Source: Natronobeatus ordinarius (GTDB taxonomy: Archaea > Halobacteriota > Halobacteria > Halobacteriales > Natrialbaceae). From it: DNA of 64,000 nucleotides. The stretch is from assembly GCF_024362485.1 (NCBI RefSeq), contig NZ_CP101456.1:3720001-3784000 (forward strand). Direction: 5' to 3'. The stretch's first letter is position 1; each line of letters opens with the position of its first letter. The notes under the pieces were generated by a model, which did not search any database, was not told where the DNA came from, and saw nothing but the letters and a program-made list of their open reading frames with translations. This document shows, piece after piece, positions 36,049 to 62,066 of the stretch. A program made the position numbers and the translations under genes.

Positions 36049-39000
36049 ATGACTGCAGGGCCACAGAACGAGGATGCGCCCCATCGGACGAGCGGATGGT
36101 ACGGTCACGGTCGGGCCACGCGAACCGCGATCGCGGCAGTCGCCCTGATCGTGTGCGTAGCGCTCGCGGTCGGCTTCGTCGGCGGCGTGTCGACCCAGAC
36201 GGACGACTTCAGGTGGGCGCCGACGGAGCCGACAGTCGGCGAGCCGGTGACCTTCGACGTGAGCGGCTACGACGCCGACGGCGACCAGTACAGGTGGTGG
36301 TTCGGCGACGGCGAAACCGCCGAGACCGACGGCCCGTCCGTCCAGCACACCTACGAGGAGGCCGGCACGTACACCGTTTCGTTCGCAACGGATGGCGCGC
36401 GCGACTACACCGAGATCGTCGTCTCGGAGCCGCAGTCACCGACCGCCGCGTTCGACTGGGAACCCGATCAGCCGACCGCCGGCCAGACGGTAACCTTCGA
36501 CGCGAGCGACTCGACGTCGCCCAACGGCGAGATCGAACGCTACCGGTGGCTCTTCGAAGGCGGTGGATACGGCGACTGGCAGACGGAGTCGACGACCACC
36601 TACACGTTCGAAACGGCCGGGATGCACGTCGTCGGACTCGAGGTCGAAGACGAGGCTGATCAGCGAGATTCGTACGCGACGGAAGCGTTCCAGATCGAAG
36701 AGCCACAGTCGCCAACTGCGGCGTTCGAGTGGACGCCACCACAACCGATCGCCGGCCAGGCGGTAACCTTCGACGCGAGCGACTCGACGTCGCCCAACGG
36801 CGAGATCGAACGCTACCGGTGGCTCTTCGAAGGCGGTGGATACGGCGACTGGCAGACGGAGTCGACGACCACCCACACGTTCGAAACGGCCGGAATGCAC
36901 GTCGTCGGACTCGAGGTCGAAGACGAGGCTGGCCAGCGAGATTCGTACGCGACGGAAGCGTTCCAGGTCGGGGAGCCACAGTCGCCGACCGCCGTGGTCG
37001 ACTGGGAACCCGATCAGCCGATCGTCGGCGAGACGGTGAGCTTCGACGCGAGCGACTCGACGTCGCCGAACGGCGAGATCGTCGAGTACCGATGGGACGT
37101 AACCGGAGACGGTTCGCTCGACGACGTGACGACCGAGCCGACGATCAGCCACACCTACGACGAGGAGGGCGGCGTTGTGATCGGGCTCGAGGTCGAAGAC
37201 GAGGTCGGTCAGACGGCAGACACCGGTGCCGAGTTCTCCGTGGCGCCTGCGGAAACCCCACCTCCAGAGCCCGACGAACCGATCGCCCGCTGTACGATCG
37301 AACCGACGACCGTCGGCGTCGGCGAGACAGTCGTCGTCGACGCGAGCGCCTCGGCGGACGCGGACGCGATCAGCGTCGACTTCCAGGGCGACGGGCAGTG
37401 GGACGTGAGGTGGGCCGACGCGTTCGTCCACGAGACGAGTTTCGACGAGCCCGGGACGTACGAGCCGGTCGTGCGCGCGTGGGGCGAACTGGAACGCCAC
37501 GACGACGTCACGTGTCCCACCGTGACGGTCGAGGACGAGCCGGCTGACGACTTTCCTGGAACTGGGGAAGATACTGACGAGCCGTCGGACGACCGCCCGG
37601 GAACTGAGGAAGGTGACGACGCTGAGGACTCTCCGGTGGACGACGCTGAGGACTCTCCGGTGGACGACGCTGAGGACCCACCGGCGGACGACGCTGAGGA
37701 CCCGCCGTCAGACGACGAAGCGGAGTCGATCGTCCCACCACCGATCCGGGACAATCTGGGCCTCGTCGCGATTGGCTTACTGACGCTTCTCGGACTCGGA
37801 TGGGCCGCGATCAGCGGCCCGCTCGGTGGCGGCGGCTCGAGCGGTTCGGGCGGCCGGCCGACGCCGATGCCGAAATCGCCAGGTGGCGGCGACGAACCGG
37901 CACGGTACGAAACCGGCGTGGTCACGCTCCCGACGGCCGGCGGCCCCGTCTCCGTCACCGACGTCGGATTCGAACCGGACCTGCTCGTGTTCACGGCGAC
38001 GACCGCGGATGCGACCGACGGCGACGTCGCGTCCGATCGAACGGTCGGCTGGACCCAGGGGATCGCGGTGCAAGGGGAAGATACCCTCGAACAGCACGCC
38101 GTCACCGTCGCCGACGACGCCCGGAGCACCGAGCGAGGGACCTGCGGAACGAGTACCGGTGACGCGTTCGAACTCGCCGTTCACGGCGACCGTTCGCTGG
38201 GGACGCTCCAGGGTTCGGTTACGGCGATGACCGACGACGGATTCGACCTCACGGTGCGGACGACTGGATCCGACGCCGCGATCGACGGGCAGGTCCGGCT
38301 CCTCTACCAGGCGTTCGCCACGGGGACAGCACTCGACGTCGACGCCGGCACGTTCCTGACGCCGACGGAACCCGGGCGCCAGCACGTCCCGCTGGACATC
38401 GACGCCAGCGTCGTGACGCTCGCGACGTCGACCGCCGTCGGGGGGCTCGGGGAGACCTGGACCACCGATCGGTCGATCGGCGTCTCGATGGGGGCGGCGG
38501 CGAGTCCCGGCGCGGCCGCCGACGGTGGTCCGACGGACGCTCGTGCGGCCGAGACGGATGGTGGCCTCCTCGAGCAGGCCGTCTGGAGCGCGAGCGTCTG
38601 GCCCGGCCGATCGAACGACGCCGCCGCCCGGTGTGGGACCGACGGCGCGCTCGCCCTGTGTTACCAGGACGGCGACCGGATCGCCGGCCGGACGACCGCG
38701 ACGGTTACCGGACTGGGCGAGCGCCTCGAGCTCCAGTTCGATCGGACCTACAGCGGCCCCCACAAGATCGACCCGACCGGTGCCCACCCGGTGCAGTACC
38801 TCGCAATCGACGCGGGTGAGCTGACGCCCGCCGTCGGCGCGGTCCGGCTGCCGGCACCCGACGAGACGCTGGCGGTCGACTGCGGGTTCGAACCCGGCCT
38901 GATCGAGGTGACGACGAGCCGGTCGGCGGCGCTCGACCACGCCCGTCACACCGGCGACGTCCCCTTTGGCTGGGCGACGGGAACCGCGATCGTCCGCGAC

Positions 39001-39792
39001 GGCGTCCTGGCCCAGTACGCGCTCTCCGGGGCCGGGAGCGTTCCCGATCCCGATATCGACCTCGACTCGTTCGACGTCGCCGAACCCGCCGATGCCGGCG
39101 GTGCGTCGACGGCCGGCGAGGTCGGCCCGGTCGTGGCGACGCCGGGCGTGGCGTCCGGAGCGGTCGACGTCGATCCGGACGCGATCGCAGATCGCCTGCC
39201 GGAGGGATTCGAGCCGACCGCTGCGGGACCGGGAACCGATGACGACGAGGACTCGGCGGAGGCGATCGGCGACGTCCTCGAGGACCCCTCCGACGTGGAG
39301 CTGACCGACGGCGGAACCGACGAGGCGATCGAACCTGCCGTCGGCGACGGGCTCGAGTTATCGGACGACGCCAGGGATCGGCTCGAACCCGACACCGGCC
39401 CGGGACTCGATCCGTCGATCGACCCTGGTCCAGACCTCGGCGACCGGACCGCCGACGACGGGACCGACGAATTCGATTCGGCGGCGCCGACGCCGCCGGG
39501 TGATGGCCACGTCGCTTCGACGCTCGCGGTCGACGACGACGGCGAGATCGTCGGTCGGGACACGGTTCGCGTCGCGTCCGTCGACTCGAGCGGATTCGCA
39601 CTCGCCGTTGAGGGTCTGCGCGTCACTGATCACGATCGCTCGGCCGAGGCACGGCCGTACGTCTGGTACCGGGCGTGGCCGACAACGGGGGCGGGAACAC
39701 GAGAATTCGATTCAGCTATGAGCAAAGTATCAAACGAGACCGAGGAGAACCGACCGGAACACCGCGATGCCACCGAAGGGGGTGTGCGATGA
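36049..39792 (+). CDS. Membrane-anchored PKD-repeat protein with large C-terminal repeat region
   Basis: This 1247-aa protein heads the giant-protein operon. A hydrophobic segment (residues ~24-47) is followed by four PKD (Ig-like) domains at ~52-400, of which the second and third are nearly identical at 91-aa period, and a fifth diverged one to ~495. An acidic repeated linker (DDAEDSP-type) leads to a second hydrophobic segment (~570-588) and a Gly/Ser hinge. The C-terminal ~650 residues contain about three copies of a beta-rich module (GFEPDLLVFTA and GFEPGLIEVTT are equivalent strands), the last split by an acidic insertion. If both hydrophobic segments span the membrane, the PKD part is outside and the modules inside. 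The module recalls domains of phage-like structural proteins. It overlaps the next gene by 4 bp. Confidence 0.8.
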   Translation: MTAGPQNEDAPHRTSGWYGHGRATRTAIAAVALIVCVALAVGFVGGVSTQTDDFRWAPTEPTVGEPVTFDVSGYDADGDQYRWWFGDGETAETDGPSVQHTYEEAGTYTVSFATDGARDYTEIVVSEPQSPTAAFDWEPDQPTAGQTVTFDASDSTSPNGEIERYRWLFEGGGYGDWQTESTTTYTFETAGMHVVGLEVEDEADQRDSYATEAFQIEEPQSPTAAFEWTPPQPIAGQAVTFDASDSTSPNGEIERYRWLFEGGGYGDWQTESTTTHTFETAGMHVVGLEVEDEAGQRDSYATEAFQVGEPQSPTAVVDWEPDQPIVGETVSFDASDSTSPNGEIVEYRWDVTGDGSLDDVTTEPTISHTYDEEGGVVIGLEVEDEVGQTADTGAEFSVAPAETPPPEPDEPIARCTIEPTTVGVGETVVVDASASADADAISVDFQGDGQWDVRWADAFVHETSFDEPGTYEPVVRAWGELERHDDVTCPTVTVEDEPADDFPGTGEDTDEPSDDRPGTEEGDDAEDSPVDDAEDSPVDDAEDPPADDAEDPPSDDEAESIVPPPIRDNLGLVAIGLLTLLGLGWAAISGPLGGGGSSGSGGRPTPMPKSPGGGDEPARYETGVVTLPTAGGPVSVTDVGFEPDLLVFTATTADATDGDVASDRTVGWTQGIAVQGEDTLEQHAVTVADDARSTERGTCGTSTGDAFELAVHGDRSLGTLQGSVTAMTDDGFDLTVRTTGSDAAIDGQVRLLYQAFATGTALDVDAGTFLTPTEPGRQHVPLDIDASVVTLATSTAVGGLGETWTTDRSIGVSMGAAASPGAAADGGPTDARAAETDGGLLEQAVWSASVWPGRSNDAAARCGTDGALALCYQDGDRIAGRTTATVTGLGERLELQFDRTYSGPHKIDPTGAHPVQYLAIDAGELTPAVGAVRLPAPDETLAVDCGFEPGLIEVTTSRSAALDHARHTGDVPFGWATGTAIVRDGVLAQYALSGAGSVPDPDIDLDSFDVAEPADAGGASTAGEVGPVVATPGVASGAVDVDPDAIADRLPEGFEPTAAGPGTDDDEDSAEAIGDVLEDPSDVELTDGGTDEAIEPAVGDGLELSDDARDRLEPDTGPGLDPSIDPGPDLGDRTADDGTDEFDSAAPTPPGDGHVASTLAVDDDGEIVGRDTVRVASVDSSGFALAVEGLRVTDHDRSAEARPYVWYRAWPTTGAGTREFDSAMSKVSNETEENRPEHRDATEGGVR
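36464..36990 (+). repeat. Tandem 273-bp PKD-domain duplication
   Basis: The segment starting near 36491 (taaccttcgacgcgagcgac) recurs at 36764 with the same order of bases over ~200 bp and only scattered changes, encoding two almost identical 91-aa PKD domains. A third, more diverged copy follows at ~37030. Confidence 0.85.
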
Positions 39793-42314
39793 CTGGTACG
39801 CTTCCCAAGGCCTACGAGTGTGTTATCGACCGAAACGGGGACTATCGGGGGCACTTGATGGGCTGGAGACAGCGGCAAGCCTCCGAGCCACACAAGATCG
39901 CTCTCTGGACGGTACTTCGGGACGTTGTTTACACGAGCGCTCGAGAGGACTGGGGGCTCACTCATGGACCGGACGATTATCGAACTGAGATGCCCAGTTT
40001 TCCTGATCTCATGGAAGAGCTAGGTGAACCCTCTGGGACATCCGATATTACCGTAGATGAACTCACGGAGTATCTCATGCTCGAAACGGAGTACGAGGGG
40101 CCAAGCGATTTCATCGAGTTCGGCACCTCGCTGAGCGAGGATCGATTACCGCTGATGAACTCCGCCAGTGAACTCGTCGATTCGCTCTCGGGGCCGACGA
40201 CGTACAAAGACGACGAGGTGAACTTTCCCGAGACGTTCGCCGAAGATTCGAACTATACGAGGCGACTCCGGGTTCTGAACCAGGTGCTCGCCGGAATCGG
40301 ATTCAGCAGTCCCGGCGAAGGCTTCGTGGCCGAGCAGCTCGCGAGAGCGTACAGGGGCCACGACCCGGTTTTCGACCCATTCGAGATGCTGAGTCCACAG
40401 CCATACGAACTCGTCGATCCGCCATACAATTTCACACCCGTCACCGAGGCGATGGAGGACCCGACACGCGGCGTCGCGTCGGTATCGGCCGTCTCGCGGG
40501 AGACTCTTGGGCATATTTGCTTTTTCTTCAATCAGATGATGTCCGGTCTCGTTCTACTGATGGAATACGACGAAATGGAGTCCGTCTATGTATTTCAGGG
40601 TCAGGGGCAAGTGTTCAACGACACGGAGATCGCCAACATCGTCAACAACTTTCTATCGCGCTTTTTCGCGCTGTTTTTCGGCCCCGAGCAGGAGTTAGAA
40701 GATGTAGACGGCCTGGGAACGTTCGTCGACTTCGACCTCGCTGCGTATTTCGAAGACGACGGCCTTCGAAAGCAGGACCTCGATGCGGCCTCGGAGGATC
40801 TTCGGGGACTGTTGCGAACCGTCCAACGGATCCGGACCGTGATCACGACGTCGATTCCCGAGGAAATCGAGGTAGACGACGATGGGAACCCGCTCGGAAA
40901 CGCCCACAAGGCTGGCTCGGATGTTGCGTCGTTTGTCGATAAGATCACCACCGGTGGCGGGTTCCACTCACACAGGATAACGAGCGCGATCGTCTACGCG
41001 TTCTCGCTCACGGCGCTTCTCGGGAGCGTGATCGAAACCAACGACAGATTCGAGATCGAACTGCAACAAGAGTGGGACGTCGATGATTGGGTCGACCTCT
41101 GTGATAACATTCAGTCAGTCATCGACTACAGTGCGGTCGATGAGATGAAGGAGCTGATCCAGGAAGGTGCAATCGATTCCTCGGCGGAGTCGAAACCGCT
41201 ATTCGTGGACACCGACACCGATTCTGGTCCCAAATCTTTGAGCGGAGCACAGAAGATTCAAGTCGCGTCGAAATTGGCCGAACCCGTATTTGCGGTCTTC
41301 GACCTCGTGCAAGCCTACTCCGGGATGCAATCTGCGAGTGACACCGGGGAATCCAGTGTCTTCCTCGGTCACGCGCTCGCCGGTGCGGGGGCGATTTCGG
41401 CGATTGCGATCTCGATGTACTCTATCGGCGCGGCGATGGCCTCGTCGGCACCGTTCCTCGTCGCCCTCGCGAGTTCGAACCCGGTTGGCTGGGTGGCCAC
41501 GGCCGGTTTGATCGCCGTGGGACTCGTCTCCTGGGCACTGATTACGTTCACGGGAGACCATCCGATTGAGATCTGGCTGCGAAACACTATCTTTGGCGAT
41601 AATTACGAAGAGGACCGGGTCTACAACGACCCCGAAGAGCCGACGTTTCGCGTCAACGATGCCACGCCGGCCGGAAAGAAACGTGACGAGGAGTATGCGG
41701 GGACGAACAAACCTCGGATGATCTCAGAGTACGTTTCGTTGACCAATCCACTGGGGTTTACGGAAAACGAAGCGACCATCACGCAGATAGACGACCCGAA
41801 AGGATCGTTCAAAGGGACGCTGAAGACCACCATTCCGCTTCCACACGGCCGATGGATGATGCTGTATCCCGTCATTGAGCTGCCGTCGAAGAATTACTTC
41901 GTTGGATACCCGTTAGAACAGGCGGACATCTCGGAAAACTGGATCCACATGATCATCCTCAGAAATCCCGAACACGACATCTCGGAAAACGTTCCCTCCG
42001 GCGACCCGAGCGTCAAGTTGAACTGCCGCTCGCTGACCTACGATATCGATCAGGGTGACGACTGGGGGTGTACCCTGGAGTTCTACGCCAATACGATCGA
42101 CATGACGTTCGGTATCCCGGAAGCGTATTTCGGTCCGAATCGCGACCACTACCTCGAATTGCTCGTCCTCGATCGACAGGTCGAACTCGAGGTTTCCAGA
42201 CTGATAGAGCAAGAGGGCTACGATGAGGCCAACGAGGTTCTCGAGGAGTTCCTCCTGACGAAGTTTCCGTACATTCGTCGTGAGCGCGTCCCCGTGACGT
42301 TAAACGTTGAGTGA
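39789..42314 (+). CDS. Putative membrane-inserting protein with VasX/BTH_I2691-like segment
   Basis: This 841-aa protein has no signal peptide. Residues ~1-520 are mixed helical. A long Gly/Ala-rich hydrophobic block (~525-585: HALAGAGAISAIAISMYSIG, then NPVGWVATAGLIAVGLVSWA) could form two or three membrane helices. It is directly followed by GDHPIEIWLRNTIFG, which strongly recalls the (D)xPLExWLxxCxFG motif after the hydrophobic block of VasX/BTH_I2691-type colicin-like type VI effectors. A beta-rich C-terminus (TLKTTIPLPHGRWMMLYPV) follows. Codons are visibly more AT-rich than in its neighbours. ATG at 39789 overlaps the PKD stop (ATGA); the upstream frame is a shadow. Function is inferred, not shown. 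Confidence 0.7.
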   Translation: MTGTLPKAYECVIDRNGDYRGHLMGWRQRQASEPHKIALWTVLRDVVYTSAREDWGLTHGPDDYRTEMPSFPDLMEELGEPSGTSDITVDELTEYLMLETEYEGPSDFIEFGTSLSEDRLPLMNSASELVDSLSGPTTYKDDEVNFPETFAEDSNYTRRLRVLNQVLAGIGFSSPGEGFVAEQLARAYRGHDPVFDPFEMLSPQPYELVDPPYNFTPVTEAMEDPTRGVASVSAVSRETLGHICFFFNQMMSGLVLLMEYDEMESVYVFQGQGQVFNDTEIANIVNNFLSRFFALFFGPEQELEDVDGLGTFVDFDLAAYFEDDGLRKQDLDAASEDLRGLLRTVQRIRTVITTSIPEEIEVDDDGNPLGNAHKAGSDVASFVDKITTGGGFHSHRITSAIVYAFSLTALLGSVIETNDRFEIELQQEWDVDDWVDLCDNIQSVIDYSAVDEMKELIQEGAIDSSAESKPLFVDTDTDSGPKSLSGAQKIQVASKLAEPVFAVFDLVQAYSGMQSASDTGESSVFLGHALAGAGAISAIAISMYSIGAAMASSAPFLVALASSNPVGWVATAGLIAVGLVSWALITFTGDHPIEIWLRNTIFGDNYEEDRVYNDPEEPTFRVNDATPAGKKRDEEYAGTNKPRMISEYVSLTNPLGFTENEATITQIDDPKGSFKGTLKTTIPLPHGRWMMLYPVIELPSKNYFVGYPLEQADISENWIHMIILRNPEHDISENVPSGDPSVKLNCRSLTYDIDQGDDWGCTLEFYANTIDMTFGIPEAYFGPNRDHYLELLVLDRQVELEVSRLIEQEGYDEANEVLEEFLLTKFPYIRRERVPVTLNVE

Positions 42315-42317: not shown

Positions 42318-45300
42318 ATGACAGACACACCGGACCTATCCAACGGATCGACCGACCAACAGTTGTTCATCGCTGTATCGCGCGTCTTCGAACCGCTCGT
42401 CGAAGCCGGGGAAGCGGCCGCCAATGGCGAATACGAACCACTCGAACGGCTGCTCGAGTCGGTCGGTGTTCCCGCTGACAATCTCGAGGATACGTTCGAC
42501 GTAATCGCTGCGAACGCAGAGGCTGTCGCGGCCACCTGGGAGACGATCGATCAGGTCGTCGAGGGTGGTGAGTTGCCGCCGGTGTCCGAGCTTCGATCCC
42601 TCTTCGACGACGTCAGGGCCGCCGTCGTGTCGGTTCGTGACCTCGACAACGTCACCGTACCCGAGATCGATGGGGCGGACGTCGGTTCGCGACTGCTCGA
42701 TTACCTGTTGCTCACCTACCTGCGGCGATACCACGCCAGCGTGTACAACGGGCTCGCGATGGTCGGCGTCGTCATCGAGGGGGCCCCTGGAACGGTGGAT
42801 TTCACCGCCCTTCCGGACGTCCTCGAGGATCCCAATTCTGTCGTGGCTGACCTCGTAGCGTGGGGGTCAGACGACTTCGACGTCTACGTGCTTTTGTACT
42901 ACCTCAGGGAAATCCTCTGGAACTTGGGAATCCCGGCCTCGCTCTCGGAGTCCAACCCGGCGGTTGCCGCCCTGGCCAGCGTGAGCGAGGGAGACGACGA
43001 ATTCCCGATCGCCGTCGAGCAGGAACTTCGCATTCCGATCGTTCACGAGGTAACGGAGACTGGCGGCGTCGCGCTCTCGCTCGCGCTCGTCCCGTTACCG
43101 CCAACCAACGACGGTTTGCTCCCGGGCGTCGCCGTCGTTCCACTCGGGAACGCTAGCTTGAACGAGACGATTCCGCTCACCGACACCGTGACGTTCGACG
43201 CCGGGTTCAGCGCCGAGCAGGCCAACTGGGGGCTGACGATCCGTCCCGACGCTGAGGACGGGATTCGAGCCGAACTGGAATCGATCGGCGACGGGGAAGC
43301 GCCGACGACGGTTCATGGCGAGGCGGGCGTCACGATCGATTCTCATGAAGACGAAACGAAACGAACGCTCATCGGTGACTCCGACGGCAATCGACTGGCG
43401 ATCGGCCAGGTGTCAGTTCGCGCGAGCATCCGGTACGACGGTGACGAGCTCTCGATGGCGTTCGAGACGCCGACGACGGGATCGATCGTCCTCCAGCCCG
43501 ACGCGTTCGACGGCTTTCTGGCGAACGTCCTCCCCGGAGACGGCATCGATCACGACTTCGACGTGACCGTCGGCTGGTCCTCGAGCGAGGGGCTGTACTT
43601 CGAACGCGGAGGCACGTTGGAGACCTCGATCCCGCAGAACGCCTCGATCGGCCCCGTCACCTTCGAGGAGATACACCTCGCAGTCCGACCCGACGCCGAC
43701 GACGGGTCGGGTGCCGAGATCGACGAGGATTCTCGGACGATCCGGCTGACCGGGGCCGCCTCGGCGACGGTCGAGCTCGGCCCGGCGACGGGGACCATCA
43801 CGCGAATGGGAATGGACGCGACGCTCAGCTTCCCGGAGGACGCCCCGTTCCCGCCGGACCTCGACGTCGGTTTCAAGCCACCGGACGGCATCGGCCTCGC
43901 GATCGACTCCGGGCCGGTCTCCGGCGGCGGCTTCCTCGAGTTCGACCACGAGAACAACCGGTACGCGGGCGCGGTCCAGCTCCACGTCGGCGACCTGACG
44001 CTCAACGCGGTCGGGTTGCTGACGACGGAGCTACCCGACGGCGGCGACGGCTTCTCGCTGCTGGTGATCGTCGCGGGGGAGTTCACGCCGGTGCAACTGG
44101 GCTTCGGCTTCACGCTCAACGGTGTCGGCGGGCTGGTCGGCATCCACCGGTCGATGAAGAAGAAGCCGCTCCAGGAGGCGGTCGCGAGCGGCTCGCTCGA
44201 CTCCGTGCTCTTCCCGGAGGACCCGGTCGCCAACGCCCAGCGGATCATCACCGACCTGCGCGCCATCTTCCCGCCGACGCGGGACACGCACGTCTTCGGC
44301 CCGATGGTGCGACTGGGCTGGGGGACGCCGACGCTGATCACGGCCGACCTCGGGGTGGTCCTCGAGGTACCCTCGCTCAATATCGCCATCCTGGGGCGGC
44401 TGTCGGCACTGCTGCCCGACGACGTCGCGCCGCTGATCGAGCTCAACATGGACGTACTCGGCTTCGTCGACCAGGAGGCCCAGGAGGTCTCGATCGACGC
44501 CTCTCTCTTCGATTCACGGGTTCTCCAGTGGAGTCTGAGCGGCGACTTCGCCCTCCGAAGCGGCTGGGGCCAGAACCCGCGATTTATCCTCTCGGCGGGT
44601 GGCTTCCACCCCGAGTACGAGCCGCCGGGGACGTTCCCCGAACTCGACCGGGTGAAAGCGAGCATGGGCAAGCCCGACGACCGCATCTACGTCGAGCTCT
44701 CGGGGTACTTCGCGCTGACGACGAACACCGCCCAGGTCGGTGGCAAGGTCGACGCCGCGGCCACCGCCGGTTCGCTCGAGGCCGCCGGCACCATCTGGTT
44801 CGACGCCCTGTTCGAGTTCGACCCGTTTTTCTTCACGATCACCTTCGGCGTGAAGTTCTCGGTCACGTACAAGGGGAAGGGATTCAGCCTGACGGCGAAG
44901 GGAAAACTCGAGGGACCGTCGCCGTGGTACGTCGAGGGCCGCGTCGAGATCGATCTCAAGCTCAAGACGATCGGAAAGAGCTTCAGCGGGTCGATCGGCT
45001 CGGAAAGCGACGACGACGGCCTGCCGCCGGCGGACGTCATGTCGAAGCTCCTCGAGGAGCTCGAGCGCCCGGGCAACTGGAGCGCCCAGCGCCCCGCCGA
45101 CGCCGGCTCGCTGGTCACCGTCCGCGAACTCGACGAGCTGACCGCCCCCAGCACGGGTCCGGACGCGGACGACGACGCTGCCGAGCGCGTGCTCGTTCAC
45201 CCGCTCGGAACGATCTCGGTCCGCCAGACCGTCGTCCCGCTCGACTTCCGCATCGAGGTGTTCGGCAACGCCCGGCCGGCGACGGAGACGAAGTTCACGA

Positions 45301-52700: not shown

Positions 52701-55700
52701 GCTGCTCGAGGCAGGCTACACCGTCGGCGAGTTGCTCGACGCCGAGGAGTCGGTCGACGCGCTGGTCGACGCTGGTGCGGACCTCGGCGCGCTGAAGGCG
52801 GCGGACGTGTCGGTGGCGGCGCTGGTCGACGCCGGCGCCGACCTCGAGACGCTTCGCGAGGCGGGGACGGGTGCTATGGAACTCGCCGAGACGGGCCTCG
52901 AGCCCGAGGAACTGGCCGACGCCGGCTACACGCCGGCGGAACTCGAGGCGGCCGGTCTCCCCGCCGAACCGGCCCGACCGGAAGCAGACGCCGAGGCGGA
53001 CGCAGCCGACGTTCCGTCGGTGCGGACGGTCGAGGTGACCGAACCGGTCGGGAAGGCCGAGCGCGACCTCTACGCGTTCGGGTTCGATCCCGCGACCTCG
53101 CGGACGCTCACGCTTGGCGGCGTCGGGGAGGCTGGCGGCGCGAACTACCTGCTGCACACCGGTCGCGAGCCCACCGGCGCGCAGACGACCGGCACGAAGA
53201 CGCTCGCCGACGAGACGGACCCGGTCGAGCCGACCGTCGATCCGGACGGTCTCCTCGACGGCGACCACGTCCACGATCGGGACGAGATCGATCCGGCCAT
53301 CGTCGACGCCGCCCGGTCCGCCGACGAGCTGGAGTCGGCTGTGGGAGAGTCGACGATGGCCGGATCGATTGGCGGCGAGACGATCGTCGACGTCCCGCAG
53401 GGCGTGATCGACGGCGACCTCGTCGTCCGGCGGCCCACGCCGACCGACGATCGGGTCGCCGACCGGATCGAGTCGCTCGTGACGTCGCTGCGGCCGCTGT
53501 GGAGCGAGGCCGCCGACGACCTCTCGTTCGCGTCGGGCGCGGACGACTGGTCCGTCCTGGACGCCCTGGAGCGAGAGGCGGTTTCCCGGGCGGCCCGCGT
53601 CGACGCTCGCGTCGCCCCGCAGCACTCGGCTGATAACGCCGGGGCGCTCAGGGCGTTCCTGACCGAGCGCGACCTCCACCAGTTCGATCCCCGACTCGCC
53701 CACCTGCCGCTCCAGCAGGTCGATGACGGCCCGCTGTTAGAGCCGCACGAGATCGTCGACGCCGACGTCGACGTCTTCCTCTCGATCCTCCGGGCAGAGT
53801 CCATCGAAGACCTGTGGACGCTCTCGTACGAGGCTGACCTGTCGCTGTTCCGGAGGTCGTCGACGAACGGGACCGGCTCGACCACGATCGACTCGTCCGG
53901 CTTCTCCGGTTCGCTGGCCGACGCGTGGGGAACGCTGCTCCCGGGATCACGCCGGGCGGCGCTGTACGCTGCCCTCGAGGAGGCGGACGATCCGGTCGGG
54001 TTGCTCGACGCCGTGTTGACCGACCCGGCTGGCGCGGGACCGGCCGGCGAGAAGCTGGAGACCGCGGCGGACTTCGCCGCGTCCTACGGCGACGCCGGCG
54101 TTCACCGGTCGCTCGCACGCGTCCTGTTACAGCACGGGCTGGTGCGCGAGTACCTCGAGGCGCGCGCTCGCCTGGGAATCGCGTTCGACGACCCGCCGGC
54201 GAGGCCGTTCGACTTCCTGCACTTCTCGAATCCAGCTCTCACGACGTACGTGACGGCCTACGACGACCTGATCCAGCCGACCGTCCCGGACCCCATCGTC
54301 GACGCCGTTTACGGGACGAGTTTCACTCAGTCCGGTGACGACGGCGACGACGATATCCCCACGGTCGACGTGGGCGAGCGCGACCTGACGAACGCGGAAT
54401 CGATCGACAGGACGGACCTCGACGAGGTGACGTTCACCTACGACGACGTCGACGCGGACGAGGAACCGGAGGGTGACCGACGAACGGACGGCGGATCCGA
54501 GGGCGGGGGTAACGATTCCGCCGACGGCGGGGGAACCGATCGCTCCGGGATGACCGTTTCGTTCGGCGTCCCGGAACTGGACGCGGCGGCCGTCGACACG
54601 AAGGCGAGTTCGCACTCGCTGGCGAAGACGGGCGCGCTCGCCGATGCAGCCAAATCCGTCGACGCCACTGGCGATACCGACGATGCAATCAAGGCCGACG
54701 ACACGGCCCGGCACACCGCCACCCAGTCGGCCTGGCCGGCTGGATCGGAGGAGTTGACCTACGGCGAGCACGTCCCCGCCGAGCCCCTGCTGGCGGACCT
54801 CTCCTACCGCGATCCCAGCTACGCCGACGTCCTGCGGACGATCGCGGCCGACGACGCGACCACGACCGGGCTCGATCCCCGACTCAGCGAGTTCACCGAC
54901 AGCCTCGCGCACGTACAGACGGTCGAGCCGGCGTCCCTCGCGACGCTGATCGGCGAGACCCTCGACCTGGCGAGCCACCGCCTCGACGCGTGGTGGACGT
55001 CGCTCGCGACCAAGCGGCTGTTCGAGCTGCGCGAGCACCAGCGACTCGGCACCGAGGCGTTCGACGCCTGGGACGTCGAGGGGTACGACCCGGACGAGAT
55101 CCTGGCGGGGCTCGACCCGTCGCTCGCGGGGGCGCTCGAGCTCGAGGTCGACGCCGGTGGCGACGAAGGGGACGGAAGTGACGCGGACGACCCGAGCGAG
55201 ATCGACGGCTTCGGCGCCGAACTGGCCGAGGGGGCCGAACCCGGCATCTACGTCGGCGGCTACGGCGTCGTCCACGATCTGTGCCCGACGCCCGAGGAGA
55301 CGCCGACGTACGTCCACGCCCCGTCCGTCCAGCAGGCCGAGACCGCGGCGCTCCTTCGAAGCGGCTACCTGGCCGGCGAGGACGACGAGGGGGCGAACCT
55401 CCTCGACGTAGACCTCTCGGCCGAGCGCGTCCAGGACGCCCGATGGCTCCTCCAGGGCGTCAGGCGCGGCCAATCTCTGGGAGAGCTACTGGGATACCGG
55501 TTCGAGCGTCGCCTCCACGAGGAGACGGTGAGTGCGACGGGGGAGAACCTGATGCAGTACCGGAAACCCCTTCGGGAGGCGTTCCCGGCCGTCCTCGGCT
55601 CGCTCGAGTACACCGACTCGCCGATCGACCCCGAGGAGGCAGCTCGGCGAGCCGAACTCGCGAAAAGCGACGTCGTCGACGGCTACCAGCTCGTTCGACA

Positions 55701-58700
55701 CTGGCACGAGGCGTATCCGTTCGGCTACGGCTCGGCGCTCCCGGACGACGGTGACGACGACGCCGACCCGGCGTACGTCGCCCTCGAGGCGATCGTCGAG
55801 GAGCTTCGAGACGACGTCGACGCCGTGAGCGACCTGCTGATCGCCGAGAGCGTCCACCAGCTGGGCAAGGGCGATGCCGACAGGGCGGGGCTCTCGCTCG
55901 AGGCGCTCTCGACGGGCGCCCACCTGCCGGAGCCCGAGGTCACGGCCCTGCCCCGGAGCGAGACGGGTCTGACCCACCGCGGGCTGGTCGTGCTCGAGGC
56001 CGACGAGTCCGATCCGGACGGCGCTGAGCCGCACCTGCGGGCGGTCGCCGAGCCCGCACTCGAGTCGTGGGCGTCGTCCCTGTTGCCGGAATCCGAGGAC
56101 GTCGGCTGTCGCGTCGTCTACGAGTGGACCGAGGGCGAGGACGGATCCGACCCGGCGGGCGAACCGGTCTTCCACGAAACGACGACGACGATGGCCGTCC
56201 TGGACCTGTCGGCCCTGGACGTGCTCGCCCTCGCCCAGGACGCCGAACGGGAGGGACAGTCTGAACTCGAGCGACGGTTCGCCTACCGGCTGCGCCGGGA
56301 CCGGCCCGCGGACGTCCCGCCAGACGCGTCGGTTTCGCTCACGCTCACCGATCCCGGTGACGCGGCGATCAGCGTCGCCGCGCTGATCGAGGCCGCACGG
56401 AGCCTGGCCAGTCTGATCGACGCCGGCCGGCCCGCCGACGGCGTCGACCTGGTCCACCCCGCCGATCCCGCGGACCCCGGCTTCGACGAGACCTCGGTCG
56501 ACGCGATCGAGGCGCGGGCGACGGCAGTCGAAACGACGCTGACGGCGCTCGAGGCGACGCTGATCGATCGGGTGACGCCCCTCGGCGTGGACGCGGAGAC
56601 GCTCCTGGCGGGCTCGAGTGAAGAGCCTGCGGGCGAGACGGGGACCGAAACCGGTGACGAGTCGACGGACGCCGGCGACGTCGACCCGATCGACGAAGAG
56701 GCGGCGCTGACGACCCGCGCCGACGCCGTCGGCGAGGCCCTCGATTCGGTCGCCGACGACGGGGTGCTTGCAGCCGTCGAGGAGGCGACGACGGCGCTCG
56801 AAACCGCCGACGTCTCCGGTGCGCTCGAGGCGCTCGCCGACGAGCTCCCCGCTGGCGTGACCGACGCAGCCAACGCGCGTGAGACGCACCTCGTGGTCGC
56901 CGAGGCGGATCAGGAGCTGGTCGGCGCGATCGGCCACGTCCCCCGTCCGCCGAAGGGTAGCCGTGGCGACGATGACGCTGCCGAAGCAGGTGACGGGAGC
57001 GAGTCCGATGGTGGTGACGGCAGTGGCGATGGCGGCGGCAGTGGCGACGTCGGGGGCGACAGCGGTGACGGCGGTGACGACGGTAACGGCGGTAGCGACG
57101 GTGGCGACGGCAGTAGCGATGATGACGGCGGTGACGGTGACGGCGGAGTCCGGTACCGGACCGTCGAGCTGCTCGATCCGGGGATTGGCGTTCCGGAGTG
57201 GGTGCTCTCGGAGGCGGCCGAGGCAGACGAGTCGGATGCCCTGGAGGGTTCCCTGTTCGAACTGGACGCCGTCGCGCGGCCCTCGATCGACCCTGATGCA
57301 CTCGCGGGGAGGCCCATCGATCCGACGGGTGGCTCCGGCGACGACGAGGGCGTGGACGACGCCGACAGTGCTGACGACGCAGACGCGGCCGACGACGCCG
57401 AGGACGAGGACCCCGACGACGGAACGGACGACTCGGTCGACCCAGTGATTCCGACGGTCGACGTCTACGTCTGGGGCGTCTCGGGCACGACGCCGTTCGC
57501 ACGCGTCACCACGGCCGACGTCGACGCCGGCCGGTTCGCGACCACCGTCGACTTCGACGACCTCGAGCCCGGTGCCCCGTTCTCGGTCGTCGCCGTGGCG
57601 GGCGGGACGATCGTCTACAGCGCGGCCGGTCGGGTGCTGGCGACCGGAGACGAGCCGGCACCGGATCCGGCTGGCGCGGTGGACGACGCACGCGACAGCC
57701 TCGGCGCCCTCTGCTGGCTGGCCGCCGTCCGCGAGTCACTTTCGCTCGAGGACGACGCGCCGACGCTCGCGGAGCTCGAGGCCGCCATCGAGGCGCTCGA
57801 CCTCGAGGCCGTCGCGGCCGAGGCCGCGGTGATCGAGACGAACTCGCCGGTGCTCACCGACGCCGACCGGGACGCCGTCGGGGCGCTCGCCGCCCTCGAC
57901 GCGGTGGAGCTCGCGGCCGTCGTCGACGCCTGCTGGGACCTGATCGACGTGGCGGTGGCCCTCGGCCTCGACGCGGCGTTCGACGTGTTCGGCTCGAGCG
58001 GGGGGCACGCCAGTGCCCGGATCGAGCCGGTACCCGGGTTCGAGGGTGTCGGCGACGTGCGCCGCCGGCTCCGACGGGTGGCGGCCGACGCGGCCGTCCT
58101 CCGGTCGTCGGCGCCGCCGCGTGCGCTCGCGTTCGACCAGCCGGTCGGCCACCTGGTGGCCGAGACGGTCGAGCCGACCGTCACGGCCCGAACGATCGAC
58201 GCGCTCGTCAACGCGCCGCCGTGGCTCGTCGGGGCGCTCGCCGACGTCGTCGACCGACCGACCCTGACGCTGGCGCGGCTCCAGGCGTGGGTGTTCGACG
58301 CCGACGGTTTCGCGTCGCTCGCCGCGAGCGGGTTCGAGGCCGACGGCGACGAGGGTGGGGCAGCGAGCGGTGGAGAGCCGAACCACCTGGCGGCCCTCGC
58401 CGACGACCTCGCGTCGATTGCGGGCGCGGTCGACGACCTCGAGACGTTGTTCGCCGGCGTGGCCGAGACGGAGCCGACGGCGGCGGCCGGCGACGCCCTG
58501 ATCGAACTGGCCGACGAACTCGACGAGCTGGCGGCGTCGCTCGACGACCCGTCCGACCTCGCCGACTGGGGGGCCGGAACGGGACCGAATCCGATCGACG
58601 CCACCGAGACGATCACCGACGACGCGGCCGTCGCGACCGAGGCGGTTTCGGCCGACCGCGCGCTGCTCGAGGCCGCCAGGGACGCCGACGGTGCGACCGC

Positions 58701-59763
58701 CCTGCGCCGGGCGGTCCTCGAGGGGCTCCGTGAGCCACTGCTCGCGGCCTCGTTCGCCGGCTTCTACGGGTCGGTGCCGGCGGCACCCGTCGGCGACGCG
58801 CGGGAGGACGAGCGCACCCTCCGTACCCAGGCGACGACACTGCTGGTCGAGCTCGACGAGCGCCTGACCGATGCAGCCGGGCTCGACCCGACGCACCCGT
58901 CGTACCCGACCGACCGGCCTCTCCCACAGCGCGTCGAGGACGGGCGCGAGCGACTGGCGATCTTGCTCGACGACGAGGTTCCGATCCTGGTGCCGTTCGG
59001 GCCGCCCAACGGTGGGGAACTGGCGCGAACGTTCGCGGAGACGGCGCCGCCGGCGTCGGCCGGCCCGCTCGCGGTGGAACGCTGGTTCCAGCGCGTCTCG
59101 CGCGTCCGGTCGCGGCCGGCGAAGCTGCGCGACGCGCTCAGCTACGCCGAGGCGCTGACCGGCGAGTTCGCCCGGGAGTTGACGGTCGGCCAGCTCCCCT
59201 TCCGGTCCGAGGACGACTGGATGGGCGCCGACGGCGTCGAGGTCGAGCGAGGACGGCTCTCGCTGGTCGCGCAGTTCGGCCCCGGCGTCGAACCGGCCGA
59301 CGTCGGCGGCCGGGTGACCGCGCTGTTCGTCGACGAGTGGGTGGAGACGGTGCCCGCCGAGACCGAGCGGACGGGGCTGGCGATCCAGTGTGACGATCCG
59401 GGCAACCGGCCGCCGCAGTCGATCCTGCTCGCGGTACCGCCCGAGGACGAAGAGTGGTCCCTCGGGGCGCTGTTCGGCGCGGTGACGGAGACGATGGCCT
59501 ACGCGCAGTACCGGTCGGTGGACCTCGACGACCTCGCGGCGGTCGAGGGTGCGCGCTCGCTGCTTCCCGGCCTCTACTTCCCGAACGACGGCCAGGAGCG
59601 ACCCGTCACGCCGTCGGTGAATTTCGACGTGATCGACTGGTACGATCGGTCCACCGACCCGCTGTTGCTCCCGAGGCACGTCTACGAGACGACGACGGTG
59701 CTCGAGGAGGTCCAGTTCATCGCCGACTCCCTCGAGGCCGACGACGCGGGTGATTCGCGATGA
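49789..59763 (+). CDS. 3324-aa giant conserved protein with decapeptide-repeat insertion
   Basis: This is the largest gene of the window. Ordered blocks: helical N-terminus; IALFPVGIETRFVG (~207); LLPDRWVALLEWERPDG (~412); LWPATLGYTLTNVL (~608) and ARGPFPTLRVGSQPYGLLPV (~672); a region of ~330 residues (732-1061) made of 10-residue repeats of the type (L)xxAGxTxxEL; acidic stretch ~1515-1580; SHRLDAWWTSLATKRLFELR (~1725); GIYVGGYGVVHDL (~1819); LLGYRFERRLH (~1900); a Gly/Asp linker (~2397-2455); and VDEWVETVPAETERTGLAIQ with PPQSILLAVPPEDEEW near the C-terminus. Except for the repeat and acidic parts, these blocks match unnamed bacterial proteins in my memory. No catalytic signature, signal or membrane segment. 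A GGAGGTG Shine-Dalgarno precedes its ATG. Confidence 0.75.
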   Translation: MNAGTDAGGDASEDLYAEAAAARERWRRSDDLLNRARLVREELLAFGDAVDWIGHGVDDLSAGSSILADLDSTERAAWEAVEDALERFQLESDEPRDALAFLVESGEDSEPAPLTAFSTEHTVDATVGALVDALETYADGGPWDAVPAALAAVPAGPEPVRDAAELFEAVAVAALHDRVAQRSRVQDAIDAATEAVYDPVTTLEEQPIALFPVGIETRFVGPADTTSAEEDELWIRLYHDDVHAHTHEFELTTEERRSGKRFWATMWLAAHPDPDEIEFDAEGTYLTERFPNDPGLREMLAGIDLDRFSSTHDARYDELKSRAWGTLVDRLGEDRADYVVHALAPTDHDGTDLEYALLTPPELGLPDLDAKSAVPDEVDRSPPETDGEYPGLAFPETPLRSQPWTKQPIAKLLPDRWVALLEWERPDGETGRKTIAGEPIEDLLPIGPRAELEGDGGGPDDPDGSEWTEEIEAAFEVGMALRVPLAALPGYDDARGIDRLVVVGAKASMAPGSTAEALTDQLRSHQYTSGLSLLSPGTETNVESADPVGALDEDPEAIGPPRVAEMDLSDGDLLARALALDTSDGHPFAHVPGADSTDQLDARHANSALWPATLGYTLTNVLTPNELIGLESIWDGASNPVPGFDDGETDPAEALAWLDAYRRHFIRYVRARGPFPTLRVGSQPYGLLPVTATHDTETAVPAPDPNVVSAIKNRALTVPEATDQGVRMASLVQAQELSTEELLEADAEPEALYEHDVDPVELLEGGVEATTMRELGENVEELADRGAELSQLVTAGFEVVELESVGATIREVIEAGAKPQQIARAGATVAQLAGVDIPAEELVRAGFTARDVVSAGFTVADVLRGGAPPSALADVGLDRDTLRRLEAPAGSLRVAGVSAADLLEAGYTASELLNGGFAEEELANTGISLADVADVGRSVAELANEGVTVDGLRERGFGPDALLESGYGPDALLEAGYTVGELLDAEESVDALVDAGADLGALKAADVSVAALVDAGADLETLREAGTGAMELAETGLEPEELADAGYTPAELEAAGLPAEPARPEADAEADAADVPSVRTVEVTEPVGKAERDLYAFGFDPATSRTLTLGGVGEAGGANYLLHTGREPTGAQTTGTKTLADETDPVEPTVDPDGLLDGDHVHDRDEIDPAIVDAARSADELESAVGESTMAGSIGGETIVDVPQGVIDGDLVVRRPTPTDDRVADRIESLVTSLRPLWSEAADDLSFASGADDWSVLDALEREAVSRAARVDARVAPQHSADNAGALRAFLTERDLHQFDPRLAHLPLQQVDDGPLLEPHEIVDADVDVFLSILRAESIEDLWTLSYEADLSLFRRSSTNGTGSTTIDSSGFSGSLADAWGTLLPGSRRAALYAALEEADDPVGLLDAVLTDPAGAGPAGEKLETAADFAASYGDAGVHRSLARVLLQHGLVREYLEARARLGIAFDDPPARPFDFLHFSNPALTTYVTAYDDLIQPTVPDPIVDAVYGTSFTQSGDDGDDDIPTVDVGERDLTNAESIDRTDLDEVTFTYDDVDADEEPEGDRRTDGGSEGGGNDSADGGGTDRSGMTVSFGVPELDAAAVDTKASSHSLAKTGALADAAKSVDATGDTDDAIKADDTARHTATQSAWPAGSEELTYGEHVPAEPLLADLSYRDPSYADVLRTIAADDATTTGLDPRLSEFTDSLAHVQTVEPASLATLIGETLDLASHRLDAWWTSLATKRLFELREHQRLGTEAFDAWDVEGYDPDEILAGLDPSLAGALELEVDAGGDEGDGSDADDPSEIDGFGAELAEGAEPGIYVGGYGVVHDLCPTPEETPTYVHAPSVQQAETAALLRSGYLAGEDDEGANLLDVDLSAERVQDARWLLQGVRRGQSLGELLGYRFERRLHEETVSATGENLMQYRKPLREAFPAVLGSLEYTDSPIDPEEAARRAELAKSDVVDGYQLVRHWHEAYPFGYGSALPDDGDDDADPAYVALEAIVEELRDDVDAVSDLLIAESVHQLGKGDADRAGLSLEALSTGAHLPEPEVTALPRSETGLTHRGLVVLEADESDPDGAEPHLRAVAEPALESWASSLLPESEDVGCRVVYEWTEGEDGSDPAGEPVFHETTTTMAVLDLSALDVLALAQDAEREGQSELERRFAYRLRRDRPADVPPDASVSLTLTDPGDAAISVAALIEAARSLASLIDAGRPADGVDLVHPADPADPGFDETSVDAIEARATAVETTLTALEATLIDRVTPLGVDAETLLAGSSEEPAGETGTETGDESTDAGDVDPIDEEAALTTRADAVGEALDSVADDGVLAAVEEATTALETADVSGALEALADELPAGVTDAANARETHLVVAEADQELVGAIGHVPRPPKGSRGDDDAAEAGDGSESDGGDGSGDGGGSGDVGGDSGDGGDDGNGGSDGGDGSSDDDGGDGDGGVRYRTVELLDPGIGVPEWVLSEAAEADESDALEGSLFELDAVARPSIDPDALAGRPIDPTGGSGDDEGVDDADSADDADAADDAEDEDPDDGTDDSVDPVIPTVDVYVWGVSGTTPFARVTTADVDAGRFATTVDFDDLEPGAPFSVVAVAGGTIVYSAAGRVLATGDEPAPDPAGAVDDARDSLGALCWLAAVRESLSLEDDAPTLAELEAAIEALDLEAVAAEAAVIETNSPVLTDADRDAVGALAALDAVELAAVVDACWDLIDVAVALGLDAAFDVFGSSGGHASARIEPVPGFEGVGDVRRRLRRVAADAAVLRSSAPPRALAFDQPVGHLVAETVEPTVTARTIDALVNAPPWLVGALADVVDRPTLTLARLQAWVFDADGFASLAASGFEADGDEGGAASGGEPNHLAALADDLASIAGAVDDLETLFAGVAETEPTAAAGDALIELADELDELAASLDDPSDLADWGAGTGPNPIDATETITDDAAVATEAVSADRALLEAARDADGATALRRAVLEGLREPLLAASFAGFYGSVPAAPVGDAREDERTLRTQATTLLVELDERLTDAAGLDPTHPSYPTDRPLPQRVEDGRERLAILLDDEVPILVPFGPPNGGELARTFAETAPPASAGPLAVERWFQRVSRVRSRPAKLRDALSYAEALTGEFARELTVGQLPFRSEDDWMGADGVEVERGRLSLVAQFGPGVEPADVGGRVTALFVDEWVETVPAETERTGLAIQCDDPGNRPPQSILLAVPPEDEEWSLGALFGAVTETMAYAQYRSVDLDDLAAVEGARSLLPGLYFPNDGQERPVTPSVNFDVIDWYDRSTDPLLLPRHVYETTTVLEEVQFIADSLEADDAGDSR
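51982..52971 (+). repeat. Decapeptide-repeat region inside the giant protein
   Basis: About 30 degenerate repeats of ten codons with consensus (D/E)LLxAGYTxx(E) encode residues ~732-1061. Regular Leu, Ala and Gly spacing (for example DLLEAGYTASELLNGGFAEE) indicates a solenoid-like stalk or binding surface inserted into an otherwise conserved family protein. Confidence 0.8.
56964..57150 (+). repeat. Gly/Asp/Ser low-complexity linker
   Basis: Repeats of ggtgacggcggtgac-like 9-15-bp units encode ~60 residues of Gly, Asp and Ser within the giant protein, a flexible acidic linker prone to slippage. Confidence 0.75.
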
Positions 59764-62066
59764 GCGCCGACTGGCCCCACTGGAGTCGCCTCGCGCCGAT
59801 CTCACGGAGTACGGATCTGGAGGAAGGGCTAGCCGGACGGGTTCACGATCCGCTCTGGCTGTTGAGCCGCCAGTGGCAGCTCGCCGAACTCCGTGGCGCG
59901 GACGCCGGGACGCCGGTCGACGTCGCGGTGCGGACCGAGCGGGACGCGCTCACCGCGGTCGAACTCCGCGGCGACGGCGAGGCCGGCGCGGCCGACGCGG
60001 TCGCCTACGACGGCGGCCCCCTGGAACCGCTCATCGAGCGGGAACCGGTGATGACGGGCGAGCGCGTCCCGACCGGTCGGCTCGCCGCGGAGGCGGGGAG
60101 CCAGTTCCGCCGGCTGCTCGCCTCGACGGGCGTCGGTGAGTACCCGGTCGCGGACTTCCCCGAGGAGTTCCACCTCGAGACGCCCGAGGAACCCATGGAG
60201 GCCGCGGACCGACGCTACTTCCGCGTGATGGACGGTCGAGCGCTCGACGGGGCAGCGATCTACGCCGCGCTGGCGGACGCCGTCGAGGATCTGGCGACGG
60301 TGGTCGAGGTCGACGACCCCGTCGACGCCTGGAACGGGGTGACGACGTCGGCGCTGCCACTGCCCGCGGGGGCCTCGCCCACCGACGAGTATCGCGATGC
60401 GGCGCTCGCGTACGCGGAGTGGTACCTGACGCTGTACGACGAGCCGGACGCCGAGACCGGGACGGCCTGGCGACCCACCCGCCTCGAGTACGACGCGGCG
60501 ATCCGGACCGGGGCGGGCGAGACCGCAGCTTCGTTCGACGTCTCGGCGTACCCCGGCGGTCGACTGGACCGCGACGCGTTCGTCCCCGGTGCCGACGCGC
60601 TGGCCGAGGGCGCGGACGACGGCAGTGACGAGCCGCCCGTCGAGCTCGATCCCTACGAGGCGGGCGGTCCCGACGGCAGTCCGGCGACCACGACTGACGA
60701 GTGCCACGGGCTTCCCACGATGGTGAATTTCCCCGGGATGCCCGACCGCCGGTGGTGGGAGTTCACCGACGCCAGCCTCGCGCTCTCCGAGCTCTCGGCC
60801 GACGGCGTCGGCCTCGCGAAGCTCCTCCTGCTCGAGTACGCCGTCGAGTTCGGTGCCGACTGGTTCACGATCCCGGTCGAGGCGCCGATCGGCTCGTTCG
60901 TTCGGATCACCGAGTGTACGGTCACCGACGTCTTCGGCGTCGAGCTGCCCGCCGAGCCGGTGACCGACGACTGGTGGCTCTACCGATCGGAGACGGAAGC
61001 GCACGACGAACCGGGGCTGTTGCTCCCGCCGACGCTGGCCGACGTGACCCGTGGCGACCCGATCGAGGAGGTCGTCATGGGGCGAGACGAGCTGGCGAAC
61101 CTCGTCTTCGCGCTCGAGCGCGTCGTCGAGGGACCGGCAGACGAGCCCGTCGACCGGACGGAGTTTCAGGTGCCGACGCTCGAGGTGGAGACCGTCCACA
61201 TGGCTGAGGATCCGGACCGGGAGTACGTCACGTTCACCAACCCGGGCGAAGACAGCTACGACCTGCGGAATCACGAGGTCCGGGCGGTCTTCGTCGAGAC
61301 CGAGGGCGAGCCCGGCGACGGGGCCCCGACCGTCCACGAGACGATCGAGCCGATCTTCTCGTTCGACGCCGTCGAACCCGAGCCGCCGGAGCTCGGGCCC
61401 GGTGAGTCGATCACGCTCTACACGGGCACCGCACCGAGCGAGGACGACTTCGGTGCCGGACTGGCGCTGTCGGTCTGGCACGAGGCGGACGCCGTCGACG
61501 TCTACGACACCGACCCCGATGCGCCCGGCGTCGCGGGTGGGTCGGGCGGTGCGTCGACCACGGAAGCGCTCGCCGTTCGGAAGCTCCTCACCCGCCCGGA
61601 CGCCGACGGCGGCTACCGGCTCTCGACGGCCGTCCCGCCGTACTGGTTCCCGTTCACGATGGACTACGATCCGGACGATCCGCCGACGTGGACCGACCCC
61701 GACGCGGCCTACCGGCTCACACAGGCCCTGTTGCTCGACGCCGACTCCCTCGACGCGCCGCTGACCGAGATTCCACGACCCGAGGGACTGATCCTCGCGC
61801 CCGATCCGGCGACGCTCCCCGCGGAGGATGAGACCGGAGACGACGGCGACGAACTCGACGACGACGCCACCTGGGTCGGGACAGACCGCCCGTACTGGAT
61901 CTACGAGGAGGAGGTCACTCGTAGCGGCGTAACCATCACCCGAACGTACCAGCTGGCGCGCTGGACGGACGGCACGACCCACCTCTGGTCCGGCCGCCGG
62001 ACCACCAACGGCGCGGGCGAACTCGCGAGCGGGCTCCGCTTCGACGTGCTCGAGGAGCTCGAGTAG
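59760..62066 (+). CDS. Giant-operon protein of 768 aa with lamin-tail-like insertion
   Basis: This last gene of the operon overlaps the 3324-aa gene by 4 bp (ATGA, with GGTGA upstream). Conserved blocks matching unnamed bacterial proteins are DPLWLLSRQWQLAELRGADA (~30), RWWEFTDASLAL (~333) and DWFTIPVEAPIGSFVRI followed by TVTDVFGVE (~367-390). Residues ~477-594 look like an inserted lamin-tail domain: REYVTFTNPGEDSYDLRNHE, LGPGESITLYTG and VWHEADAVDVYDTD. The C-terminus (YWIYEEEVTRSGVTITRTYQ) is beta-rich. No signal peptide or catalytic motif. Presumably part of one assembly with its upstream neighbours. Confidence 0.72.
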   Translation: MSADWPHWSRLAPISRSTDLEEGLAGRVHDPLWLLSRQWQLAELRGADAGTPVDVAVRTERDALTAVELRGDGEAGAADAVAYDGGPLEPLIEREPVMTGERVPTGRLAAEAGSQFRRLLASTGVGEYPVADFPEEFHLETPEEPMEAADRRYFRVMDGRALDGAAIYAALADAVEDLATVVEVDDPVDAWNGVTTSALPLPAGASPTDEYRDAALAYAEWYLTLYDEPDAETGTAWRPTRLEYDAAIRTGAGETAASFDVSAYPGGRLDRDAFVPGADALAEGADDGSDEPPVELDPYEAGGPDGSPATTTDECHGLPTMVNFPGMPDRRWWEFTDASLALSELSADGVGLAKLLLLEYAVEFGADWFTIPVEAPIGSFVRITECTVTDVFGVELPAEPVTDDWWLYRSETEAHDEPGLLLPPTLADVTRGDPIEEVVMGRDELANLVFALERVVEGPADEPVDRTEFQVPTLEVETVHMAEDPDREYVTFTNPGEDSYDLRNHEVRAVFVETEGEPGDGAPTVHETIEPIFSFDAVEPEPPELGPGESITLYTGTAPSEDDFGAGLALSVWHEADAVDVYDTDPDAPGVAGGSGGASTTEALAVRKLLTRPDADGGYRLSTAVPPYWFPFTMDYDPDDPPTWTDPDAAYRLTQALLLDADSLDAPLTEIPRPEGLILAPDPATLPAEDETGDDGDELDDDATWVGTDRPYWIYEEEVTRSGVTITRTYQLARWTDGTTHLWSGRRTTNGAGELASGLRFDVLEELE

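Follow-up and report, generated by a model that had tools for sequence, protein, structure and literature searches.

A giant-gene operon of the haloarchaeon Natronobeatus ordinarius combines a four-protein core shared with bacteria and a putative slot for exchangeable effectors

The window analysed here, i.e. 64,000 nucleotides (nt) of Natronobeatus ordinarius (contig NZ_CP101456.1, positions 3,720,001 to 3,784,000), is located on a 4.08-Mb contig of a 4.2-Mb haloarchaeal genome with relatives in Natronosalvus, Natrinema and Halalkalicoccus, and harbours an operon of six co-directional genes on the forward strand that a sequence-only reading had delimited. Their products are named P2 (1247 amino acids (aa), window positions 36049..39792), P3 (841 aa, 39789..42314), P4 (1285 aa, 42318..46175), P5 (1206 aa, 46172..49792), P6 (3324 aa, 49789..59763), which is the largest, and P7 (768 aa, 59760..62066). 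All six open reading frames (ORFs) were confirmed at the coordinates and lengths given by that reading, and the junctions it listed, i.e. four ATGA overlaps and a single 3-nt gap (TGA GCC ATG) between P3 and P4, are exact. GC content at third codon positions is 0.71-0.90 in frame across the six ORFs, which speaks for genuine genes. As expected from the proposed single promoter, one AT-rich stretch ahead of P2 (35942..35981, + strand), the 40-mer with the lowest GC content (0.225) between uvrB and P2, fits a putative archaeal promoter. A 114-aa ORF without a family (35708-36052) spans this stretch and shares an ATGA overlap with the P2 start, but is probably spurious.

Four of the proteins, i.e. 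P4 to P7, form a conserved core. P4, proposed earlier to be DUF6603-like, is a member of that family (PF20248), with 434.9 bits against a cut-off of 27 (E 4.9e-130). P7, recognizable in alignments by a DPLWLL-RQWQ-E-GED motif, has at least 415 relatives in a P7-family pattern scan of 84,980 species genomes, the best 80 of which span Halobacteria, Nitrospira, Actinomycetota, Acidobacteriota, Pseudomonadota, Verrucomicrobiota, Bacillota, Cyanobacteria, Myxococcota, Bacteroidota, Balneolota and Spirochaetota. Haloarchaea and bacteria of at least ten phyla keep the order DUF6603-P5-P6-P7, which is also found on plasmids of Halalkalicoccus, Halobellus, Salinigranum, Streptomyces, Rhizobium and Paraburkholderia. 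P6 stands beside P7 in 79 of 80 independently fetched loci, overlapping it or lying at most 60 nt away in 75, a joint occurrence far beyond chance. Loci with at least 9 kb of upstream sequence contained P6 in 51/51, P5 in 47/51 and DUF6603 in 33/51 cases, the last count being limited by the 10-kb flank, and a DUF6603 gene was present in all 38 genomes reached via P7. Among 150 Streptomycetaceae, DUF6603 was found in 33, P7 in 15 and both in 13, with 3.3 expected; thus, P7 is nearly always accompanied by DUF6603, while DUF6603 has further contexts. Streptomycetaceae DUF6603 genes without P7 are often longer ORFs, representing a second context for the family.

The neighbourhood survey shows the co-occurrence of homologues on which the sequence-only reading had staked its proposal, and its view that the last three proteins are shared with bacteria but unnamed holds for these as well as for DUF6603. 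None of P5-P7 belongs to a dedicated Pfam family (P6 matching through its repeats only), and P5, characterized by a conserved NHEM..LLWR.FPTD.RGTYFRQFWD-type block, gave no Pfam, NCBIfam or PDB match. A PDB sequence search with P4-P7 returned no relatives of note, and no paper naming DUF6603 was found in the literature searched. Genes 3' of P7 vary from locus to locus, without a conserved downstream partner being found. Of the six proteins placed in one scaffold by the earlier reading, DUF6603-P5-P6-P7 indeed behave as one unit, whereas P2 and P3 lie outside the core.

Variations on this layout were seen in several bacteria. The cyanobacterium Leptolyngbya sp. PCC 7375 carries tandem modules (locus L118, 3564-19000), i.e. 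P5-P6-P7 with a PhoD gene and another DUF6603 gene directly behind them, and has three DUF6603 genes in its genome in total. Nitrospira loci (L048, L050, L051, L053, L054, L058, L072, L076 and L077) hold an extra co-directional gene of around 270-340 aa between P5 and P6, in a gap of 850-920 nt. The actinobacterial P5 of Micromonospora (L034, 219-5543) is a fusion protein with FG-GAP/VCBS-type repeats and a DUF3892 domain.

In contrast to the core, the gene directly 5' of DUF6603, usually overlapping it or within about 50 nt, is not conserved in identity. In 36 classified loci this slot holds a PhoD-like protein 15 times, a P3-like protein 8 times (haloarchaea), a phospholipase D (PLD) 4 times, a trypsin-like protein 3 times, and a subtilase, a metallo-beta-lactamase, a ferritin-like protein and a DUF2515 protein once each, with 2 unknown. 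Active-site motifs can be read in the PhoD, PLD (HKD motif), trypsin-type and subtilase sequences, and in Polyangium an alpha/beta-hydrolase is fused onto DUF6603 itself. The archaeon Salinigranum harbours PhoD where its haloarchaeal relatives hold P3, and Natrinema gelatinilyticum, Nitrospira LK70 and Streptomyces wedmorensis each possess two modules with differing cargo in one genome. Cargo genes mostly show a lower GC content than the adjoining DUF6603 gene, to which amino-acid composition may contribute; in the window, P3 has 56.5 % against 66.9-72.1 % for its neighbours. The second copy of Natrinema gelatinilyticum (L128, 3646-4929, - strand) has a 427-aa slot gene without a Pfam match and with a GC content of 0.379 versus 0.580 for DUF6603, making it a candidate for a recently acquired effector. 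During this survey, wrong-frame ORFs 5' of DUF6603 in high-GC contigs, such as a 713-aa ORF of L102, were discarded and replaced after a similarity check.

The N-terminal half of P4 (residues 1-441; 42318..43640) follows the cargo. At equal divergence of the DUF6603 core, similarity in this region is two to three times higher between proteins that share a cargo type, and 0 of 5000 label shuffles reached the observed match between N-region and cargo type, although the shuffle ignores phylogeny. For example, the N-region of the Salinigranum P4, which accompanies PhoD, is nearer to that of Leptolyngbya, also with PhoD, than to those of its P3-carrying haloarchaeal relatives, while the core shows the reverse. 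We therefore regard it as reasonably probable that the operon is a cargo-effector module, in which a constant core holds one exchangeable toxic or hydrolytic protein.

In the window, the slot is occupied by P3, which diverges very fast: it shares around 20-25 % with its relatives over short stretches, compared to 39-54 % over the full length of P4. Hydropathy analysis revealed three hydrophobic segments in P3 that the sequence-only reading did not mention; its claim that all proteins but P2 lack signal peptides fits P5-P7, none of which has an N-terminal hydrophobic segment. All six aligned P3 members match NF041559, i.e. the BTH_I2691 family of type VI secretion system (T6SS) effectors, with a best E of 2.7e-10. 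The window P3 (E 8.3e-6, 24.6 bits) stays far below the curated cut-off of 150 bits, aligning over its hairpin region solely to positions 743-837 of the 858-position model, so that this match does not reach the N-terminal MIX domain. P3 resembles BTH_I2691, Tke5 and Ptx2 in that a long C-terminal part comes after its hydrophobic segments; unlike for these effectors, no T6SS sheath is present in the genome. Tke5, a member of the BTH_I2691 family, is a pore-forming toxin (PMC12909789). The P3 profile also aligns to the helical pore-forming domain of colicin A (1col, E 7.4e-4) and weakly to that of colicin S4 (E 0.16), the alignment ending at the same hydrophobic hairpin, which together with a following EEWL-x-FG-like motif covers residues 502-605 (41292..41603). 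In contrast to colicins, no receptor-binding or translocation domains were found in P3, which is encoded in a chromosomal operon of an archaeal host. Taken together, the likeness to NF041559 and colicin A makes a distant pore-forming toxin the most likely identity of P3, though the evidence does not suffice to place it in the BTH_I2691 family. A weak PADLOC match to LeoBC covers the P3 hairpin only.

Structure models were obtained for P4 residues 1-1140 (AlphaFold2, 17 sequences) and for P7. The DUF6603 core of P4 (residues 442-1028; 43641..45401) is predicted to form a large amphipathic antiparallel beta-sheet, with some 25 long strands modelled at a predicted local distance difference test (pLDDT) score of about 90 between residues 530 and 890 or so. 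The top Foldseek match of this model was ApoB100 (E 3.3e-6), followed by outer-membrane proteins, and VIA gave Z scores of 16.2 to ApoB100 and around 14 to porins. The long meandering sheet thus resembles the beta-belts of ApoB100 and outer-membrane beta-barrels, but since the root-mean-square deviation (rmsd) is about 10 Å, at 8 % identity, the match reflects shared architecture and not homology, and the porin matches were likewise not read as kinship. The strands are clearly two-faced, with a mean hydropathy of +1.98 on one side versus -0.90 on the other, a difference reached by 0 of 1000 within-strand shuffles. DUF6603 occurs in archaea and Gram-positive bacteria, where a resident porin would find no classical outer membrane; its hydrophobic face must therefore contact lipid, cargo or a partner.

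The remaining proteins carry accessory domains, which in different loci comprise PKD, lamin-tail (LTD), BGTF, FG-GAP and peptidoglycan-binding domains and are mostly of surface type, favouring an action outside the cell. P2 is, as the sequence-only reading had it, a double-hydrophobic PKD protein, with hydrophobic segments at residues 21-51 and 569-592, four Pfam PKD matches between them and a C-terminal domain at 600-1226. However, it occurs only in a few close, Natrialbaceae-type relatives, with its C-terminal part 57-66 % identical in genome G032 and Natronosalvus; P2, the proposed anchor, is accessory and outside the conserved core. Its C-terminal domain recurs within P6 of Haloglomus, Halorientalis and Halobellus, linking P2 to the complex. 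P6 contains decapeptide repeats resembling DotG/IcmE (residues 713-1070; 51925..52998; PF25296, E 1.8e-54), an archaeal insertion with BLAST matches only in archaeal P6, and a weak BGTF-like surface domain (residues 2557-2616; 57457..57636; NF045517, E 6e-5, 23.1 bits against a cut-off of 40). A relationship to type IVB secretion was rejected, as the DotG/IcmE match (NF033900, E 1.3e-42) reaches 146 bits against a cut-off of 750 and covers these repeats only. In archaeal P7, modelled at pLDDT 75, a predicted LTD of Ig-like fold is inserted at residues 471-616 (61170..61607), superimposing on lamin B1 over 103 residues (VIA Z 11.3, rmsd 2.5), while the Pfam LTD match (E 0.0068) falls below its cut-off. 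Two segments of P7, residues 1-48 and 331-354, are the most conserved; they are of low confidence in the isolated model and may be surfaces that fold only against a partner, i.e. inter-subunit contacts.

The operon is bordered by uvrB on the left (33124..35208, + strand; Pfam UvrB domains) and a GNAT acetyltransferase gene on the right (62165..62674, - strand; Pfam GNAT). In five relatives these two genes lie 1.6-3.2 kb apart with the operon missing, and this empty site indicates that the operon is an island that was gained, or repeatedly lost. P3, DUF6603 and P7 are found in the identical 3 of 61 haloarchaeal genomes, two of which contributed to the P3 profile. A target-site duplication at the island ends was considered and rejected, the only candidate being a 9-nt chance match. 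In two relatives the uvrB-adjacent GNAT gene is tandemly duplicated (L122, 3726-4865; L126, 5327-6417).

None of the known systems compared accounts for the whole module. Polymorphic toxins and cargo-adaptor systems, such as T6SS Tap adaptors and Rhs (PMC3482391), likewise combine constant machinery with exchangeable effectors and a cargo-matched adaptor part, and the module shows this combination, with a putative trafficking role of the constant part. It differs in that no cognate immunity gene adjoins the toxin at the P3-P4 junction and that the cargo is a separate upstream gene instead of a C-terminal fusion, except in Polyangium. In the scans run, no relationship of the core to the Rhs, contact-dependent inhibition (CDI), T6SS and type VII secretion system families was found. 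Haloarchaeal contractile injection systems, among them the haloarchaeal T6SS described in PMC11566945, also form large gene clusters with a link to toxins. Sheath matches (PF04984, PF17482) were present in 16 of 28 holder genomes overall, but in none of the six haloarchaeal ones (G000 and five others), and the core proteins match no contractile injection system or phage family; a contractile injection system was hence rejected. This agrees with the sequence-only reading, for which the operon carries no sheath, ATPase, terminase or capsid gene and is no known injection system or prophage; none of these genes is present, and DUF6603 and P5-P7 match no named apparatus. A phage or prophage origin was rejected as well, with 0 P7 relatives in IMG/VR, no meaningful PHROG match and no convincing match of the P7 model in a viral fold library. 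Among 50,697 INPHARED phage records, one unannotated, unverified faecal scaffold, ‘Bacteriophage sp.’ L013 (MT835531.1), carries P6 and P7 relatives; given the absence of relatives from IMG/VR, it seems to be a contig of bacterial rather than phage origin. Within the reach of these tests, the core is unrelated to the polymorphic toxin and T6SS cargo systems and hence new, while the cargo proteins are members or relatives of known kinds.

The earlier interpretation as a membrane-attached intracellular assembly overlooks the key feature, an interchangeable toxin or hydrolase together with a DUF6603 N-region that tracks it. Instead, we tentatively propose that DUF6603-P5-P6-P7 may be a new class of non-contractile toxin-delivery machine common to haloarchaea and bacteria. 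Its large amphipathic beta-sheet protein would move an exchangeable effector, in this case a colicin-like pore-former, into target membranes or insert it there. The four core proteins would assemble into a large non-contractile complex holding the cargo encoded directly upstream, here P3, with P5-P7 building a shell or scaffold and the N-terminal half of DUF6603 binding the cargo. The beta-sheet of DUF6603 would be the membrane-active part, either engaging and inserting into the membrane or shielding a hydrophobic cargo, while the surface-type accessory domains (PKD, LTD, FG-GAP and peptidoglycan-binding) could help in docking on cell surfaces. The complex would thus act on other cells and, since P2 alone has a signal-like segment, might be released by lysis, as extracellular injection systems are, or by another route.

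Several observations weigh against such a delivery machine, and delivery itself is a step that we infer. No signal peptides and no exporter were found, and no immunity gene is evident, P3 and P4 being 3 nt apart without a small gene between them, although one that is divergent or encoded at a distance may exist. Neither the ferritin-like nor the PhoD cargo is a classical toxin, around 12 further loci have no classifiable slot gene, and about 20 of 150 Streptomycetaceae contain DUF6603 without P7, so that other contexts exist. Moreover, the cargo survey was based on script-called ORFs, and the permutation test linking cargo and adaptor takes no account of phylogeny. The missing signal peptides would suit an intracellular defence system of the abortive-infection type, in which P5-P7 would detect infection or damage and set the effector (a pore, phospholipase or protease) free inside the cell. 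Such a system would need no immunity gene, its kinds of effector are similar to those of known defence systems, and the patchy distribution as well as the island location with empty sites would fit. Even so, we consider this explanation unlikely, as P2 and P4-P7 have no PADLOC match at E 0.01, no signalling domain (NTPase, TIR, kinase or other) was found, and the accessory domains are of surface type.

The cargo itself bears on two further explanations. Most slot occupants look like intact enzymes and one is ferritin-like, which could point to an encapsulin- or metabolosome-like scaffold or storage compartment holding non-toxic housekeeping cargo (phosphatases, proteases, ferritin-like proteins); this is rather improbable, considering that the kinship of P3 to pore-forming toxins makes little sense for a metabolic enzyme, that the amphipathic sheet of DUF6603 points to membranes or lipid, and that cargo chemistry is unrelated between loci. 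Lipid would be central if DUF6603 were a lipid-carrying beta-belt of the ApoB or lipid-transfer type within a surface complex, in which the upstream hydrolases process envelope lipids and proteins. ApoB100 as the top structural match and the phosphodiesterase nature of the PhoD and PLD cargo are in line with this, yet that match is architectural only, and proteases, a metallo-beta-lactamase and a colicin-like pore are ill-suited to lipid processing, making such a role very improbable.

Regardless of the exact mechanism, haloarchaea and at least ten bacterial phyla share an unnamed four-protein machine. Through the cargo slot, new effectors can be identified from gene position only, P3 being the example here, and since the N-region of DUF6603 matches the cargo, the adaptor idea can be tested directly. 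If the machine does carry toxins, it would add a further kind of antagonism system, and one of the few effector systems in archaea.

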